Virus record (IMG/VR): IMGVR_UViG_3300031227_000552
Coordinates: 1 to 20,335 of that record
Origin: a virus
Direction: 5' to 3' (one strand)
Length of the DNA: 20,335 bases
In this document: one piece after another, positions 7,421-17,786 of the stretch
Position numbering within the stretch: position 1 is the first letter of the stretch
How the letters are laid out: every line of letters starts with the position of its first letter
Made by a program: the position numbers and the translations under genes
The notes under the pieces: model-generated
Database searches by the model: none
Seen by the model: only the letters and a program-made list of their open reading frames with translations
What the model was told of the DNA's origin: nothing

Positions 7421-7919
7421 AACGGTTAATTTTAGTCTTGATCCATTACAACAAACTCGCCTTTGACATAGCCATAGGTGTTGTTTGCAATAGCGTCAGT
7501 TGAGATGTCGATTGCAATAACTTGGAAACCCCAAGCTACACAACCTGTATCACCTTCATCAACGCTATCATTTTTCTCAAGATCAATGATCGTACCCACG
7601 TTAGTCTGAGCTACAACTGCGGCTTCTTCAACCTTAACCCAGAACTTCAAACCCTGAAGCGGTGGAATAACTAAAAGACTTTCTCCACTCGAACATCCAT
7701 GGGCTGCTACCCCTAAAAACTCCTTCGCAAACGCCAATATAGCGTTTGTTGCGTAACCGTTTCCGTCATCGTGGATGGCTTGCCCCTTAACAATAGTTAC
7801 TGCCGCGGCCGTAAACTTTCTCATTCCGGACTCTTCAATACTATTGTCTAATGTGAATCCATCTTTGTAGTAATATTTAGACATCTTAACTACCTCCTTA
7901 AAACAATAACGGTTAATTT
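7421..7919 (-). repeat. 12-base direct repeat bounding the duplicated gene
   Basis: The 12-mer aacggttaattt occurs at 7421-7432 and 7908-7919, 487 bases apart, each time just past the 3' end of, or beside, a decoration gene. Together with the homologous genes this marks an ancient tandem duplication unit that included the intergenic sequence. Confidence 0.6.
7432..7884 (-). CDS. Decoration/head-stabilising-like protein, copy 2
   Basis: 150 residues, same length as the gene just upstream and clearly homologous along its whole length (shared YYKDGF, LRKFT/MRKFT, VIPP.QG.KFWVKVE, CVAWG, IAIDISTD and the identical ending FVVMDQD). It is rich in beta-forming residues and Ala/Gly, with no signal peptide, fitting a capsid decoration or cement protein encoded next to the shell protein. 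SD AAGGAGG precedes ATG. Both copies look intact, so they may form a mixed decoration layer or have diverged in timing. Confidence 0.7.
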   Translation of the reverse strand: MSKYYYKDGFTLDNSIEESGMRKFTAAAVTIVKGQAIHDDGNGYATNAILAFAKEFLGVAAHGCSSGESLLVIPPLQGLKFWVKVEEAAVVAQTNVGTIIDLEKNDSVDEGDTGCVAWGFQVIAIDISTDAIANNTYGYVKGEFVVMDQD

Positions 7920-7925
7920 ACTTTT

Positions 7926-8378
7926 TTAGTCCTGATCCATAACTACGAACTGAACTTTGGCGTAACCATAAGTATTGCTCGCAATAGAATCGGTTGAAAT
8001 GTCAATAGCAATAATCTGACATCCCCAAGCTACACAAGTATTATCAGAAATATCAATACTGTCGTTAGCATGGAGATCACAAATTTCACCGACATTACTC
8101 TGATCTAAAACTTCATCATTTTCAACTTTGACCCAAAACTTATAGCCCTGGCGTGGAGGAATAACTAAAATATCCTCTCCGCTTGTGCTACTATGAGCCG
8201 CTATTCCTAAAAAAGTATTAGCAAATGCTGTCGTCGCGTTAGTTGCTAAACCAGCCGTATCGTCATGAAGGGCTTGTCCTTTAGTAATCGTAACTGCGGC
8301 GGAAGTAAATTTGCGTAACCCTGATCCTAATACATTGGTGTCAGGTGTAAACCCATCTTTATAGTAACTCTTATTCAT
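7926..8378 (-). CDS. Decoration/head-stabilising-like protein, copy 1
   Basis: 150 residues, paralogue of the next gene downstream. It starts MNKSYYKDGFTPD after an AGGAGG SD (CAGGAGGTATTAGAGATG). The central VIPPRQGYKFWVKVE and the terminal TYGYAKVQFVVMDQD are nearly shared with its copy, while the middle loops differ. It lies between the zinc ribbon/scaffold genes and the capsid gene, the usual site for a head-decoration gene. Role inferred from position and size. Confidence 0.7.
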   Translation of the reverse strand: MNKSYYKDGFTPDTNVLGSGLRKFTSAAVTITKGQALHDDTAGLATNATTAFANTFLGIAAHSSTSGEDILVIPPRQGYKFWVKVENDEVLDQSNVGEICDLHANDSIDISDNTCVAWGCQIIAIDISTDSIASNTYGYAKVQFVVMDQD

Positions 8379-8578: not shown

Positions 8579-9784
8579 TTAGTCCTTATCTTGTGAGGGA
8601 TCGTAAATGCCCCCCAAACCCATTTCAGTCCTACGATCCAGATTAGCTTTCGCTTTCGCCGGATCAAGTCCTGCCTTCTTAAATAAAGCCTCTAACTTTT
8701 GTAAATGATCTGATTTTGAACCTATTGGCTTTGTAACTACATGAGCTGCCGTAGAACTATTGCTCTCATCAACACTTTCCCTACGATCGGCTTCACTTTT
8801 CAAAGCATCCTCCTTTATTTTTGCAACCTCATCCTCAGTATATAACTTCGGAGTTGGTTTTGTTTCCTTAGCACCAGCCAACCTTATTTCAAGCTCGGCC
8901 GCAACTTTGTCTCCAAAGTCGATTGCTTCCATCCACTTAGGATTCTCTTTAACGATCTGATCGCATATTGCGTATTCAGGGTATTCACTTTCGAGTACAT
9001 CAAGAACTTCGCTTTTGCTTAACCCCTTTTCCTTTAACTCTAAAACCTTTGCTTCAGGCCTTACGTTTGGGAACTTCTCAGTTAAGCGTTTAACAGATTT
9101 GTCTTGCTCTGCCAAAAACTCCTCGGCTTTTTCAGCCATCTCAGCTTTTGTTGCAGATTCGTTCTGTAACGAAACCCTGCGTTGCTCATTCTTTGCTACC
9201 CACCTTTGCGCTGCTAACGGATCTTCGTCATTCCAAGTTTCCCAATCTTCCTTCGTCATCTCACGCCTTTCGACATAAGGTTTTTCTTTGTCCTCAGTTA
9301 TTTCAGTAAGGACTCTTTGCTCTTCAGCTTGGACAGCGTTTCTCTCAACCACAGGTGTTGTTGCAATCGCTATCTCACTCTTCAGCGATGCAATCTCGGT
9401 TTCATGCACCGTATCACCTGTTTCTTTGGCACGCTCTAAATCCTTCAGCCTACCAAACATCTTTGAGATCTTCTTCTCGGCCTTCTTCAGCTTCCTAGCG
9501 AGTTGTTTATCAGTAGGTTCGCCTTTCCTCTTTTCTTTAATCTCTTCGACTTTCGTCTTTTCTTCTTCTTCTAACTGATCCTCCGGCTTATCTAGCAAAT
9601 CCTCGTCGCTGTCATCAGCCGCTTCTTCAGTCTGAATTTCCTCCGCAGTCTTTTGTTTAGGCTCTGCGACTTCCTCTGCTTTTTTGGTTTCCTCAACCTT
9701 CTTTACTTCTTCAGCCTCTTGTTTTCCTGCCAGGAGATCGCCCAACTTTTTCTTTCCTAGCTCTAAAACGGTTTCAAGACTCAT
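8579..9784 (-). CDS. Scaffolding-like head assembly protein
   Basis: 401 residues, highly charged. Residues about 20-110 are Glu/Lys-rich coiled coil, about 155-230 are helical, and the C-terminal third has GLSKSEVLDVLESEYPEY and a tail LGGIYDPSQDKD. No enzyme motif is seen. Position between portal and capsid, length and acidic helical composition are those of phage scaffolding proteins, which guide capsid assembly and leave or are degraded before packaging. SD CAGGAGGAAAAACATG. No protease domain is visible in it or next to it. Confidence 0.7.
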   Translation of the reverse strand: MSLETVLELGKKKLGDLLAGKQEAEEVKKVEETKKAEEVAEPKQKTAEEIQTEEAADDSDEDLLDKPEDQLEEEEKTKVEEIKEKRKGEPTDKQLARKLKKAEKKISKMFGRLKDLERAKETGDTVHETEIASLKSEIAIATTPVVERNAVQAEEQRVLTEITEDKEKPYVERREMTKEDWETWNDEDPLAAQRWVAKNEQRRVSLQNESATKAEMAEKAEEFLAEQDKSVKRLTEKFPNVRPEAKVLELKEKGLSKSEVLDVLESEYPEYAICDQIVKENPKWMEAIDFGDKVAAELEIRLAGAKETKPTPKLYTEDEVAKIKEDALKSEADRRESVDESNSSTAAHVVTKPIGSKSDHLQKLEALFKKAGLDPAKAKANLDRRTEMGLGGIYDPSQDKD

Positions 9785-10386: not shown

Positions 10387-10401
10387 GTAATATCTCCATA
10401 T

Positions 10402-10419
10402 CATATCAATTCTGATGTG
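10402..10419. promoter_or_regulatory. Operator-like palindrome, site 1
   Basis: 18-base imperfect inverted repeat catatcaattctgatgtg. It matches a second site in 15 of 18 positions. Its left end overlaps the rejected upstream ATG of the 10120 gene, 16 bases before the preferred start, a good place for a repressor to act. Confidence 0.5.
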
Positions 10420-10442
10420 TTATATGCATATTTCCCTCATAA

Positions 10443-10460
10443 CACATCAATTATGATGTT
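10443..10460. promoter_or_regulatory. Operator-like palindrome, site 2
   Basis: 18-base sequence cacatcaattatgatgtt with a perfect ACATCA/TGATGT inverted core. Its centre is 41 bases (about four helical turns) from site 1, so a dimeric regulator could bind both on the same face. A weak promoter may lie between them, but no good -35/-10 pair is visible. Confidence 0.5.
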
Positions 10461-10462
10461 TT

Positions 10463-10661
10463 AAGCTAGGTAACGATTTGCCGAGAACCAGAGTTAGCTG
10501 GTGCTAAAGACTCGTATAGTCACGTTACATAGACATCTATTCTTATTGGAGTCCGATTAGCTAATTCTACGTATCTCCTTCCTAAGAATGTCTATTACAA
10601 TCTGCTTTGCGTTCCGATGGTTTATAGCAATGATTGTGTCTACCTATTCCACCACTAGCTT
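10463..10661 (-). ncRNA. Candidate structured RNA with expanded tRNA-Leu-like topology
   Basis: Minus-strand pairings: a 7-bp closing stem 10661-10655 with 10469-10463; a D-arm-like segment 10654-10635 (TG, GTG stem, loop with GGTAGA, CAC), nearly identical to tRNA-Leu D arms; an 8-bp anticodon-like stem with a 2-nt bulge (10635-10632 and 10629-10626 with 10606-10599) and a 19-nt loop; a 12-bp stem 10594-10583 with 10545-10530 (4-nt bulge) where a long variable arm would be; and a 6-bp stem 10528-10523 with 10475-10470 abutting the closing stem as a T arm does. That last arm's 47-base loop ends CAAAT, like the 3' half of a T loop, and holds two small hairpins. There is no normal 7-nt anticodon loop and no encoded CCA. 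The stretch has no open reading frame with an SD. Confidence 0.55.
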
Positions 10662-10690: not shown

Positions 10691-10798
10691 CTATCTTCTT
10701 CTACGGCCTCTGCCTGCCCCACGACCTCTACCTGGCTTTGCATCACCCTTCTTACCAACCCTTGGCGTACCTCCGCAACTACCTTTTCTAGCTGTCAT
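10691..10798 (-). CDS. Arg/Gly-rich basic micro-protein after the portal
   Basis: 35 residues: MTARKGSCGGTPRVGKK, then GDAKPGRGRGAGRGRRRR, stop TAG. The SD AAAGGAG sits inside the last portal codons six bases before ATG, and the start is one base after the portal stop, so translation is coupled to the portal. About one third of residues are Arg or Lys and nearly a third Gly, giving an RGG-like, protamine-like composition that would bind nucleic acid. It might coat DNA or the adjacent structured RNA; this is inference. Too short for most gene callers. Confidence 0.65.
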   Translation of the reverse strand: MTARKGSCGGTPRVGKKGDAKPGRGRGAGRGRRRR

Positions 10799-14346: not shown

Positions 14347-14535
14347 TCAGGCCTCCTTTAGTTTGTGCATATCTTCTAACTCAAAATCCCAAGGAATAAA
14401 TATCTTTAAACCGTCGTGTATTGCAAAGAATCTTTTACATCTTTCACAATATAATTTTCTAGCTCCAGGAATAGTATCATAACCCTTAACCACCTTTAAT
14501 TTATGAAAAAAGATTTTACACCATAGGTTCGCCAT
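14347..14535 (-). CDS. Small Cys knuckle protein (DUF1660-like)
   Basis: 62 residues with MANLWCKIFFHKL at the start and CERC near residues 30-33, a C...H...CxxC arrangement as in small phage zinc-binding proteins of the DUF1660 kind. Its ATG overlaps the terminase stop (TAATG) and its SD AAAGGAG is within the last terminase codons, so it is translationally coupled to terL. Confidence 0.55.
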   Translation of the reverse strand: MANLWCKIFFHKLKVVKGYDTIPGARKLYCERCKRFFAIHDGLKIFIPWDFELEDMHKLKEA

Positions 14536-17500
14536 TAATAGCTCCTTTTCTTTCCTGATTCAAACTCCTGTTTAACTATGAACCGAGGATTTGACATACA
14601 GAGATACCTAACCAGATCGCAGTTAGCCACTAGAATATCATTGGCATAATATCTGTGACGACCCTCGACCGTTATATTATAAACTGTTTCTTTTGAGTTT
14701 GGTAGCACTTTGACTACGGCCACCGCATTTTCTGGAACAGGTTTTTGTTGCAGAGTATTTGTTGATAGAAAACGTGGAATTACAGACAACACAGATTCGC
14801 TGTTCATTGTCAACGCCGGATTGCCTACGGTATCTTGATTTGCAATTATTGGAACAAAATTTAAAATCCCAACACACTTTAGTTTGAAATTCATTCCCAC
14901 ACATTTCACATATTTTAATACGAGGTGTACGATTCTTCCAAATCTTTTTAAATTGCCTAGATGCAACTTCTCTCCCATCCTTGCTTTTATGCCATGCTGC
15001 CATTTTCTTACTATGTCCTGTATGCTTTTGGATTCGTTCACTAAGCTCTCTTCGACGTTCTTTTGAGTATGGATGTTTCGCCCAATGTTCCTTAACCGTA
15101 AGAAGTTCAAGATTAGAAATGTCATTATTAAATTTATCACCGTCGATATGATGCAGGTGCATCCCTTTCGGAATTTTCCCATTAACTTTTTCCCAAACTT
15201 CTCTGTGAAAAAATCTTGATCCAAGTTGCAAATATCCACTTCTTCCAACTTTCCAATCGTATGTCCTTTTTCTTGCCATACACATATTGTATCACCATAT
15301 CGCAATAGGTCAAGAGAAACTTTTAATCCATTTTGTAAATAAATTTGATGGTTAGGCGTACCGCATAATTCTTTTCCATTAGAAAACGTAACCGCTACTG
15401 TTGGTCTATTAAACCCAGTTGCCATTGATACTAATACTTTCCTCAATCCAATATCTGTTTCCACCAAGTCACCAACCTTAATATCTTCGATTGGTATTTG
15501 GCCACATGAAGTTCTTACCATTGTTCCAGCCACAAAGCAGAAATCCTTGAACGCTTCCTTCGGCTTAACCTTGTCCTTAACATCACCATCAGCAGAGGTT
15601 ATATCCTTACGGCTATATCTTGACATGTGCCTTATGTGATTCGTACAATTATCACAGATAAAAAACTTTGGCTGAACAATCAACTCGGCATCCTTTTCCT
15701 CCCAATGTAAGAACTGTCTGACCTGTAAATGCCCTGCCTCAACTGAATCAATGCCATCTTTATATATCAATCCTCTCTTTTTAAGCTCTTCAACCGGCGT
15801 TGTCTTGGCCTGGCCGCCCTGTCTTTGAGCCAACTGCATTGTCTTATTCCCGAAATTAGGGTCAATTATGCGCTTAATGAACTTATTCTTGACTCCTTGC
15901 ATAAGAATTGACTCTTTCATTTTGATATACTTGGCATATTCATCATAAGTCTTGTCATCATAAAGCATATCATTGAAGTTTCGTTCCGGGTATTCCTCAA
16001 TAGCACACACAGAACCGGTCGGATGAACTGCATACCAACCAATCGCCCAAGGTTTCCTATCATGCGGATCAAGTACATTGTATATTTGACACCCAGATAG
16101 CTCTACATCCTCTCTTCCGATAACATGGACATCCTTATTGAACGATGGATATATCTTGCCTTGTAGGTTGATTGGGATGCCATAGAAGCGGCTTTTAATC
16201 TCCTGTCTGGTCATCAGCTTGGCTTCTTCCATCATTCGCTCATAATTGATGTATGGATTGTTCTCAGTCCAAAGGAAATAGAACTTAACACCGTTCTTTT
16301 CAGCGATCACAGGCAGCACTTCATCAACTAAAGCAGCATAACGGCTCTTGATAACCGTATGCCCTTCAAATATCTCTTCAATTAACTCCGTAACACCGCG
16401 CAAAGAAGTCATTGAAAGCAACAACTCGCCATCCCTGTCAAGCAATCTCATCTTAATCTCTTGCCATATATCCAGGTCAGGCTCTTCATCACACCACGCA
16501 AGGTCAATAGCATCACCCTGAAACGCCTCACGCTTTTGGTCATAAGACTTAAAGATCGCTAAGGATCTGTTTTTAAGTAATAGCTTACGGTTCGTATAGC
16601 CATTGATCTCATCATAACTGCCGTACTTGATTTTATGTAAAGGCATGAGCCTTGCCATCTTAGCCTGTTGAATGTTCACAGACTCAGCAAAGGTTAATGC
16701 ACAACACCAGAACCTTGCGGCCGGCATTGAGATCATCTTCTTATCTACATAACAACTGACGGCTTCAGTCTTTCCGGAATTATGATGAATCGCGCCACAC
16801 GCATAATAATTATGATATTTGGGAACAGTAAAATCCCACTTGACATCTTCCCTGATATACTCTATACTGATTATAGCCGAATAAGCGGTATTACGAAAGG
16901 AGTTGTCACGTGGCATGGCACAACAAGAACGAATATCCTGTAAATCAGATTCGGGAATGGATTGAGGTTGAAGGAAAAACTCAAGCATGGATTGGTAAGC
17001 AACTTGGATTTGACGCAAAGCTAATTTATAAAGTTTGTAAGAAGCATGGAATAAAATGCCAACGAACTGGGCCTCGATCCGGCTCTGGCCATCCTGATTG
17101 GAAGGGTGGCAGATTGATCGACGGCGATGGCTATGTTTTGGTGTATTGTCCTGAACATCCTTATGCAAGAAAGCCTCGCGGGTGCTATGTGCTTGAGCAT
17201 CGCTTGGTGATGGAGTATCATTTAAAAAGATTTCTTTCTCGCTCAGAGGTGGTGCATCACAAGAATGGAAACAAACAGGACAACCAGATCGAAAATCTAC
17301 GTTTGTTTTCGAATAATTCTGAACATCTGAAACATGAGTTGTCTGGTAAGATTCCGGCTTGGACTTCGGAAGGAAGATTAAAAATCCTTCATGCAATAAA
17401 GAAACTGGCTGATAACCGTAGAGGCCTAACACTTGATGAGTACCAGAACAAACGAAACTCTCGCCAGAACATAGCGTAACTTTAAACATGCTCCCAGCAT

Positions 17501-17786
17501 CTTTCGTGAAGGGCTTGCTTGCTTCTGAAATAACAAGCCTCTTGCCATCCCATGCAAGTACATGGAAGTTTTCTTTTATCTTCCCAACGGCAATAGATTG
17601 CTTTAGGACAGGATCATATATCTCTGTTTCTGCCCCCAAACATCTGTTGCCCCCGAATATCACCTTGATTTTGGCTGGATCATTAGCCCATAGCTGCTGC
17701 TGAGGTAGGTATTGGTGAGCCATCAGAGGATTCTTTTTGGCTCTTGCGGCGTACTCTTGCGCGTACTTAATATCAGGTATATCCAT
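14535..17786 (-). CDS. terL: Terminase large subunit carrying two inteins
   Basis: 1083 residues: about 489 of terminase plus two inteins (49-336 and 750-1055). The mature enzyme is the DNA-packaging motor: an ATPase that docks on the portal and a nuclease that cuts concatemers. Walker A becomes GGNRSGKT after the first intein is removed (residues 45-48 joined to 337-340). Walker B is DLAWCDEE (D433, E434), the coupling motif is SMTS (458-461), and nuclease aspartates are likely D573 (LDPHD), D642 (IDPNFG) and D1057 (CDLVRY), the last just after the second intein. SD AAGGA lies four bases before ATG. Neither the ATPase loop nor the final nuclease motif is complete without splicing. Confidence 0.9.
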   Translation of the reverse strand: MDIPDIKYAQEYAARAKKNPLMAHQYLPQQQLWANDPAKIKVIFGGNRCLGAETEIYDPVLKQSIAVGKIKENFHVLAWDGKRLVISEASKPFTKDAGSMFKVTLCSGESFVCSGTHQVLGLYGYQPVSLLHEGFLIFLPKSKPESYQTTHVSDVQNYSKTNVDFRSGCPVCFHSCDAPPLSEKEIFLNDTPSPSDAQAHSTREAFLHKDVQDNTPKHSHRRRSICHPSNQDGQSRIEAQFVGILFHASYKLYKLALRQIQVAYQSMLEFFLQPQSIPESDLQDIRSCCAMPRDNSFRNTAYSAIISIEYIREDVKWDFTVPKYHNYYACGAIHHNSGKTEAVSCYVDKKMISMPAARFWCCALTFAESVNIQQAKMARLMPLHKIKYGSYDEINGYTNRKLLLKNRSLAIFKSYDQKREAFQGDAIDLAWCDEEPDLDIWQEIKMRLLDRDGELLLSMTSLRGVTELIEEIFEGHTVIKSRYAALVDEVLPVIAEKNGVKFYFLWTENNPYINYERMMEEAKLMTRQEIKSRFYGIPINLQGKIYPSFNKDVHVIGREDVELSGCQIYNVLDPHDRKPWAIGWYAVHPTGSVCAIEEYPERNFNDMLYDDKTYDEYAKYIKMKESILMQGVKNKFIKRIIDPNFGNKTMQLAQRQGGQAKTTPVEELKKRGLIYKDGIDSVEAGHLQVRQFLHWEEKDAELIVQPKFFICDNCTNHIRHMSRYSRKDITSADGDVKDKVKPKEAFKDFCFVAGTMVRTSCGQIPIEDIKVGDLVETDIGLRKVLVSMATGFNRPTVAVTFSNGKELCGTPNHQIYLQNGLKVSLDLLRYGDTICVWQEKGHTIGKLEEVDICNLDQDFFTEKFGKKLMGKFRKGCTCIISTVINLIMTFLILNFLRLRNIGRNIHTQKNVEESLVNESKSIQDIVRKWQHGIKARMGEKLHLGNLKRFGRIVHLVLKYVKCVGMNFKLKCVGILNFVPIIANQDTVGNPALTMNSESVLSVIPRFLSTNTLQQKPVPENAVAVVKVLPNSKETVYNITVEGRHRYYANDILVANCDLVRYLCMSNPRFIVKQEFESGKKRSY
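14622..15539 (-). other. Intein 2 in terL (between F749 and C1056)
   Basis: Residues 750-1055, 306 aa, inserted one residue before nuclease Asp1057. Block A is CFVAGTMVRTSCG with Cys1; block B is GTPNHQIYL; the C-terminal block is ETVYNITVEGRHRYYAND followed by ILVAN, and the +1 residue is Cys. These are standard class 1 splicing blocks, except for Ala in place of the penultimate His. The linker between blocks B and F has no endonuclease in the terminase frame; instead the -1 frame encodes an HNH protein. The C-terminal block starts just where that gene ends. Confidence 0.85.
14677..15285 (-). CDS. HNH endonuclease in the -1 frame of intein 2
   Basis: 202 residues, same strand as terL but in the -1 frame, contained within the intein. 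Residues 17-62 match HNH_3 homing nucleases (GYLQLGSRFFHREVWEKV, then PKGMHLHHIDGDKFNNDISN), with H45, H46, N54 and N58 as active-site candidates. The C-terminal half has two CX2CX14CX3C zinc ribbons (C126, C129, C144, C148; C165, C168, C183, C187), probably for DNA recognition. A TGA lies three codons before the first ATG, so entry is by internal initiation (ATG 15285 or 15279; SD weak) or by a -1 shift near an A5 run. TTGACC-N16-TACAAT at 15313-15286 is a possible promoter that would give a near-leaderless message. It would cut terL alleles lacking the intein. Confidence 0.8.
   Translation of the reverse strand: MCMARKRTYDWKVGRSGYLQLGSRFFHREVWEKVNGKIPKGMHLHHIDGDKFNNDISNLELLTVKEHWAKHPYSKERRRELSERIQKHTGHSKKMAAWHKSKDGREVASRQFKKIWKNRTPRIKICEMCGNEFQTKVCWDFKFCSNNCKSRYRRQSGVDNEQRICVVCNSTFSINKYSATKTCSRKCGGRSQSATKLKRNSL
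16840..16868 (+). promoter_or_regulatory. Promoter for the antisense HNH gene
   Basis: TTGACA (16840-16845), 17-base spacer, TATACT (16863-16868; one mismatch to TATAAT). It points toward the plus-strand HNH gene, whose GTG is about 35 bases past the predicted start. It sits inside codons for the residues just before and in block F of intein 1. Confidence 0.65.
16910..17479 (+). CDS. Antisense HNH homing endonuclease inside intein 1
   Basis: 189 residues, the only convincing plus-strand gene in the window. It starts at GTG 16910 with AAAGGAG (16897-16903) seven bases upstream. N-terminal residues about 10-50 look like a helix-turn-helix (WIGKQLGFDAKLIYKVCKKH); residues about 70-140 match HNH nucleases of intron/intein type (YVLEHRLVMEYHL, EVVHHKNGNKQDN, IENLRLFSNN), with H116, H117, N119, N125 and N129. 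It is nested wholly in intein 1 but opposite to it, and its last 17 or so codons overlap block B. It should nick or cut terL without the intein and so spread it; specificity is unknown. Confidence 0.85.
   Translation: MAWHNKNEYPVNQIREWIEVEGKTQAWIGKQLGFDAKLIYKVCKKHGIKCQRTGPRSGSGHPDWKGGRLIDGDGYVLVYCPEHPYARKPRGCYVLEHRLVMEYHLKRFLSRSEVVHHKNGNKQDNQIENLRLFSNNSEHLKHELSGKIPAWTSEGRLKILHAIKKLADNRRGLTLDEYQNKRNSRQNIA

Follow-up and report, generated by a model that had tools for sequence, protein, structure and literature searches.

In canonical tRNAs, the T-loop sequence U54-U55-C56 is near universal, and in tRNA-Leu the discriminator A73 is an identity element for LeuRS, which does not read the anticodon. 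In tmRNA, tRNA-like ends are joined by pseudoknots. The tRNA-like structures of plant viruses lie at the 3' end of RNA genomes and carry a pseudoknot in the acceptor stem, and Y RNAs of the YrlA type, known by their partnership with Ro60, are phage or bacterial non-coding RNAs with a tRNA-imitating domain. Bacillus cereus tRNA-Other, compared here by description only, is a tRNA-like chromosomal pseudo-tRNA beside a genomic island which is reported not to be used in translation and was proposed to be part of a larger regulatory RNA (PMC3399842).

Here, an RNA of exactly 199 nt was found on the minus strand (10661..10463) of an IMG/VR phage record, of which the whole stretch of 20,335 nt that was analysed is termed the window. 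This RNA belongs to a large family of unannotated phage RNAs on a tRNA-Leu body. The family shares with bacterial tRNA-Leu, a class II tRNA, the acceptor, U8, the D-arm sequence, the tertiary positions of the D- and T-loops and the end CAAAU-C, but differs from it in its length of ~90–250 nt, in having no normal anticodon arm and in carrying a G, not the usual U, at position 55; in the window's form the T-loop is split and A73 is not kept, and in many members the acceptor helix is extended. It is far shorter than tmRNA, and neither ARAGORN nor the Rfam tmRNA model detected a tmRNA. With the plant-virus structures (Tymo_tRNA-like, RF00233) it has in common viral tRNA mimicry with pseudoknots, and the Rfam match to that family, 15 nt over the T-loop UGCAA, was at chance level (E 8.6) and not significant. 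YrlA was not matched in the Rfam scans, where the window and SPP1 elements gave no such match at E ≤ 10, and no Ro60 domain was found among the subset of window proteins scanned with Pfam.

The structural genes of the window are encoded on the minus strand in the order small terminase, large terminase (with two inteins), SU10-type portal and, downstream, a capsid-fold head protein. On the same strand, the RNA is flanked by the portal and a 35-aa Arg/Gly-rich ORF (10691..10798, minus strand, upstream of and outside the RNA) on one side and by a 94-aa ORF on the other; the order reads portal, RNA, scaffold-like acidic protein (so named from position and composition only), capsid gene. A relative of the 35-residue protein is encoded in the portal-related locus L004, and blast found no copy of the RNA beside that gene. 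Directly downstream of the RNA, 10399–10465 forms a long imperfect AT-rich palindrome with a weak Rfam mir-2 match, which is not terminator-like. Elsewhere in the window, the two intein-like insertions of the large terminase ORF (14535–17786, minus strand) are overlapped by HNH_3 endonuclease ORFs, one at 16910–17479 on the opposite, plus strand and one at 14677–15285 on the minus strand in another frame, and two tandem similar 150-aa proteins are encoded beside the capsid gene (7432–7884 and 7926–8378), the one scanned of which matched no family.

The expanded tRNA-Leu architecture drawn by the first-pass annotation was found with its acceptor, TG, D arm, long arm, T stem and CAAAT in place, all on the minus strand. 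The acceptor-like stem AAGCTAG/CTAGCTT (10655..10661 with 10463..10469) has 7/7 pairs, all of which covary in the family, and TG follows directly as U8 G9 (10653..10654), T8 and G9 being invariant in A1, an alignment of 51 sequences that includes the window. In the D arm GTG-GAATAGGTAGA-CAC (10636..10652), A14, A15, A17 and A21 are invariant in A1, G18/G19 are conserved to at least 90% and the middle D-stem pair is C-G or U-A, covarying. An anticodon-like arm had also been proposed; its 5-bp stem CAATC/GATTG is present (10598..10636; 10636–10632 with 10602–10598), but it is found in the window copy alone and borrows C26 from the D stem. The long variable-like arm (10529..10595; 10595–10583 with 10545–10529), seen in the MFE fold, pairs ATAGACAT-TCTTA with TAAGA..ATGTCTAT, and the 6-bp T-like stem GTAACG/CGTTAC (10523..10528 with 10470..10475; compensatory changes at 5/6 pairs) abuts the 3' acceptor strand, preceded by CAAAT.

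Between T-loop positions 54–55 (U G, 10521..10522) and 56–60 (CAAAU, 10476..10480), both invariant in A1, an insert occupies 10481..10520 that is missing from a second, unsplit form of the family. The insert consists of ACUAUA (10520–10515, invariant in A1), the stem CGAG/CUCG (10514–10511 with 10485–10482, CGAG invariant in A1) and the inner hairpin ACCAG/CUGGU (10502–10498 with 10491–10487). Of the two T-loop hairpins suggested earlier, the first, GACT/AGTC, clashes with the conserved CGAG/CTCG pairing, in which ACUAUA is unpaired.

Folding of the RNA as a single sequence was uninformative (z −1.25, with 24/200 shuffles folding equally well), its MFE fold already including the acceptor stem, long arm and T stem. 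Such a fold says little, yet the window RNA is real, since homologues settle the question. A covariance model built from 30 other loci with the window left out (R3) matched the RNA with 88 bits (E 3.6e-21) and found no second match anywhere in the window; a model with the window in its training set (R1) gave 95.2 bits. A model of the unsplit form only, without the T-loop insert (R2), matched just the 5' half (10661–10558) at 29.7 bits, about its score for tRNA-Leu. ARAGORN called no tRNA and no tmRNA in the window. The Rfam search called for by the first-pass annotation yielded no family for the window at gathering score; at E ≤ 10 the RNA alone gave no match and a wider stretch four weak, sub-threshold ones, and in the tested isolates no credible Rfam 15 family lay over the RNA itself.

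Three loci were obtained as portal relatives. At the portal site the RNA is absent from L002 and L004, and in L003 both RNA ends are conserved at the same place, with a 195-aa ORF matching PDDEXK_5 between them. A protein in the same region of relatives had been foreseen as evidence against the RNA; a PD-(D/E)XK endonuclease gene does lie there in L003, but it is inserted between conserved RNA ends. The interior of the L003 copy (8709–9296) holds this endonuclease gene and a 47-aa ORF. A group I intron, considered on account of the endonuclease ORF, was rejected for the window, as no Rfam intron was matched and homologues free of the ORF keep the RNA. A further locus, L006, found by the 3' motif in another phage context, has the same acceptor and T stems with a different middle and was matched by R3 with 73 bits.

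Loop-motif patterns matched 22, at least 120 and 22 viral stretches, and a separate viral scan for the unsplit form gave at least 120 matches. When pairing was scored, 102 distinct elements out of 150 core sites fitted the architecture, among the matches listed. Selection by the D-arm and T-loop motifs alone, free of pairing, gave 64 split-form elements among the matches listed, of which 57 had an acceptor of 7/7 pairs, five of 6/7, one of 5 and one of 4; the mean was 6.84 pairs compared with 3.63 when the 3' strands were swapped. For the unsplit form chosen by motif, again among the matches listed, 95/114 had 7/7 pairs, 16 had 6/7, two had 5 and one had 4 (swapped-strand mean, 3.7). Most full-length split-form members scored 82–107 bits, and degenerate, cut or partial ones 26–78 bits.

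Covariation among homologues, set beforehand as the refuting test, proved strong in both forms. In A1, 99.3% of cells were paired and 220 were double-changed, against 56 in shuffles, with double changes at 7/7 acceptor pairs and 5/6 T-stem pairs; slid controls were ~40–46% paired. In A2, an alignment of 61 unsplit sequences, 98.5% of cells were paired and 255 were double-changed, against 69 in shuffles, with double changes at all seven acceptor pairs; of these measures, only the number of pairs showing a double change did not exceed shuffles (118/500), and the others did. The four pairs of CGAG/CUCG were paired in 100% of cells and nearly invariant, which indicates conservation, not covariation.

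The T-loop of the unsplit form, UGCAAAU, reads GGUGCAAAUCC and is without the insert; since it runs uninterrupted, the insert of the window's subtype, in which a second helix ACUAUA-CGAG...CUCG opens the T-loop, was placed between positions 55 and 56. Blast with one element matched unannotated stretches of isolated phages. Ten places were fetched from this search and two earlier lists, and eight of them were family members by R1 (43–59 bits). Seven of these eight, SPP1 among them, are without the T-loop insert and, besides SPP1, belong to phages of Listeria, Enterococcus, Lactobacillus, Weissella and Brochothrix; the single insert-bearing member is from a spring-water podovirus (L169). Of the remaining two places, L170 was an ordinary tRNA-Leu and L168 (599–761, in a Bacteroides LoVEphage) a different, related variant with a TTCGAGT T-loop, a long middle region and 27.7 bits with R1. 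Five further records all carried the family RNA, and it is present in Grass, SBSphiJ2 and PSA too. Two records hold one split and one unsplit copy 1–2 kb apart (L040 825–980/3030–3165; L049 230–444/1521–1669).

The SPP1 copy (L162 595–703, X89721 3423–3531) is located between gene 9 and the scaffold gene 11. In the open-access PMC literature, no paper describing the phage RNA was found, and the searched passages of two SPP1 papers do not mention a tRNA-like RNA at this location (PMC6316719, PMC9607348). By eye, a second tRNA-like sequence is seen downstream of the SPP1 element (L162 ~716–760); it is very short, its T-loop reads TTCAATT and its acceptor is paired. In Listeria phage B025 (L165 340–589), rli62/rliG-like sequences lie directly upstream of the RNA, and a query covering this stretch also matched 214 Staphylococcus phage records. 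Weak blast matches from the T regions of the window and L006 point to Shewanella phage 1/44 (KJ018213, 24245–24289), possibly a split-form copy; blast of the L074, L048 and L006 stretches against phages and plasmids gave nothing useful.

The suggestion that the RNA is tRNA-derived was borne out with models built from phage RNAs only. In three cellular genomes R1 gave 14 matches at E ≤ 0.01, and all eight that were fetched were tRNA-Leu, scoring 30–35 bits, well under most full-length split-form members; R2 retrieved the same tRNA-Leu genes. Since both models retrieve tRNA-Leu, the resemblance to tRNA is real and leucine-specific. The acceptor, D and T stems and U8, A14, G18, G19, C56 and A58 are present in A1 and A2, and A15 together with a U directly before the T stem is kept across the family, as is the T-loop end CAAAU-C. 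A 5-bp anticodon stem with a 7-nt loop was not found, pseudoknots or irregular arms standing in its place, and ARAGORN called none of 102 split-form elements among the matches listed.

The middle region, downstream of the D arm, is free to vary and has no conserved sequence. What recurs is a pair of crossing helices: the first begins right behind the D arm, the second closes right ahead of the T stem, and the 5' strand of the second lies in the loop of the first. In a lenient test, such a pseudoknot with S1+S2 of at least 12 bp was present in 18/88 split (3.4 in shuffles) and 12/84 unsplit elements (1.2 in shuffles); successive hairpins of the same strength were found in 6/88 (2.9 expected) and 2/84 (0.75 expected). 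The anticodon arm is thus replaced in the family, often by a predicted H-type pseudoknot of changing sequence, a prediction that does not extend to every member. In the window itself the middle, drawn as successive hairpins at the outset, does read better that way (two hairpins; sequential score 12 versus pseudoknot score 11), and by eye the same holds for L006.

At the 3' end, the unsplit form has A73 in 34/61 (background A 0.35, p 6e-4) and U74 in 34/61 sequences (background 0.25, p 3e-7), and in CCA-less phage tRNAs of the same loci U74 occurs in 64/105. A downstream U favours RNase Z in Bacillus. These base counts suggest 3' trimming of the unsplit RNA, as in a CCA-less tRNA. For A73 the split form shows no enrichment (37/88, background 0.375), and for U74 a weak one (33/88, p 0.02); at least 4 extra pairs extend the acceptor helix beyond 7 bp in 39/88 elements, compared with 3.1 in swaps, and CCA follows within 6 nt in 6/88. 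With A73 and U74 unconvincing and acceptor helices extended, the window's form is probably not charged.

Homologues lie in unrelated contexts, which include tRNA clusters, replication genes and late-operon starts. Among the matches listed, the largest cluster of neighbour proteins covered 4 loci among 102 elements, 46/50 viral records had one copy and four had 2–3, and a true tRNA gene lay within 1 kb of 8/102 elements; in EFDG1 and Grass the RNA sits within a tRNA cluster. Both flanking ORFs are usually on the strand of the RNA. Neighbours with the upstream ORF opposite and the downstream ORF on the same strand, a position at the start of a strand switch, were in modest excess in the split form, 19 v 3 (80 aa), 11 v 5 (100 aa) and 10 v 6 (120 aa), and the unsplit form had no asymmetry (8 v 5, 6 v 7 and 4 v 5). 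An operon leader was dropped as an idea because the unsplit form did not reproduce the asymmetry. Likewise rejected as a family feature was boxA, an antitermination signal: GTTCTTTAAAAA lies ahead of the RNA in the window and in L003, but the strict motif was found upstream of 3/88 elements (0.42 in shuffles) and looser forms of 6/88 and 10/88.

The absence of a shared neighbour gene, the mostly single copies, the copies in tRNA clusters and the lack of orientation bias in the unsplit form argue for action in trans. The best explanation we can offer, tentatively and short of calling it probable, is a trans-acting tRNA mimic that occupies a tRNA-binding site of the host, likeliest on the ribosome. 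The RNA would be transcribed together with its neighbours, trimmed at its 3' end, if unsplit, in the manner of a CCA-less tRNA, and folded to a tRNA-like elbow that acts in trans at this site. On the ribosome, the pseudoknot might imitate the anticodon–codon duplex, and the outcome would be a translation that is biased, stalled or protected in infection, not decoding; with its extra elbow helix and longer acceptor helix, the split form would be a structural mimic that is not aminoacylated. Only the shape suggests the ribosome as the target, which makes this choice a guess. Against a mimic speak the successive hairpins in the middle of the window RNA and the unconvincing A73/U74 of the split form; the variable middle also counts against a ribosome mimic, as conserved sequence would be expected at a ribosome site, and the orientation excess of the split form weakens the trans reading, since a cis leader would give it too. 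The broader proposition, a hitherto undescribed, very widespread class of trans-acting phage tRNA-mimic RNAs with a tRNA-Leu elbow, a pseudoknot for the anticodon arm, a large subclass with a helix-opened T-loop and a target in translation or the tRNA machinery, appears to us about as plausible as its opposite, with a slight leaning to doubt.

Action in cis is possible, if rather unlikely: the fold might be an mRNA element at which RNase P/RNase Z cuts or exonucleases are stopped, so that late transcripts are divided or stabilised, for example between portal and scaffold/capsid. Its location in the window between the portal and the scaffold-like and capsid genes, in SPP1 between genes 9 and 11 and in some Firmicutes phages (PSA, VEsP-1) after the late-activator gene is consistent with such a role, as are the acceptor helices of the split form, often longer than 7 bp as a structural block could have, and some orientation asymmetry in this form. 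However, contexts are very varied with no neighbour genes shared, the unsplit form is without asymmetry, copies are found inside tRNA clusters, and the invariant D-loop and T-loop insert would be needless for a mere cleavage site.

An unlikely role is that of a decoy or counter-defence RNA soaking up host enzymes that recognise the elbow, such as tRNA-cutting or tRNA-sensing defence or tRNA modification. So far the family has been met in phage and virus records only: 395 Bacteroidota genomes gave no match at E ≤ 1e-9, a search that, with stricter filters and run without a positive control, shows little, and a pattern scan of genome contigs gave seven matches with no D arm or T stem in the flanks printed. 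Retention of the elbow without the anticodon arm and a highly variable, arms-race-like middle region would suit a decoy, but the anticodon arm, absent here, is what most known anticodon nucleases read.

Use as a real tRNA, or as a tRNA-like substrate for leucylation, is very improbable. The RNA has the D arm and tertiary positions of tRNA-Leu, and A73 shows a moderate enrichment in the unsplit form, but the background-level A73 of the window's form, its often extended acceptor helix, the rare downstream CCA, the split T-loop, G55 and the failure of ARAGORN to call any element all speak against charging. The packaging role that had been tied to the head genes, after the precedent of phi29 packaging RNA, was not upheld and is highly improbable: in the window and in SPP1 the RNA is located among head genes, but elsewhere it occurs inside tRNA clusters or close to replication genes, two of the three portal relatives have no RNA at that site, contexts vary with no fixed association with one packaging module, and no Rfam family was matched in the window at gathering score. 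A functionless, degraded or chance tRNA-like sequence, to which the non-significant single-sequence fold might point, is contradicted by many covarying homologues with invariant loops and can practically be dismissed.

The RNA is unannotated in the records examined and was missed by both ARAGORN and Rfam. Since it is present in phages of well-studied hosts, namely SPP1, the SBSphiJ type and Grass of Bacillus subtilis, PSA of Listeria and EFDG1 of Enterococcus, its role is directly testable. For the tRNA elbow, a conserved T-loop with a helix inserted between positions 55 and 56 poses a structural puzzle. A shared host target would be the natural implication of a tRNA mimic found across such a range of unrelated phages and, if the reading as a trans-acting mimic is true, this class would be the DNA-phage counterpart of the tRNA-like structures of plant viruses.
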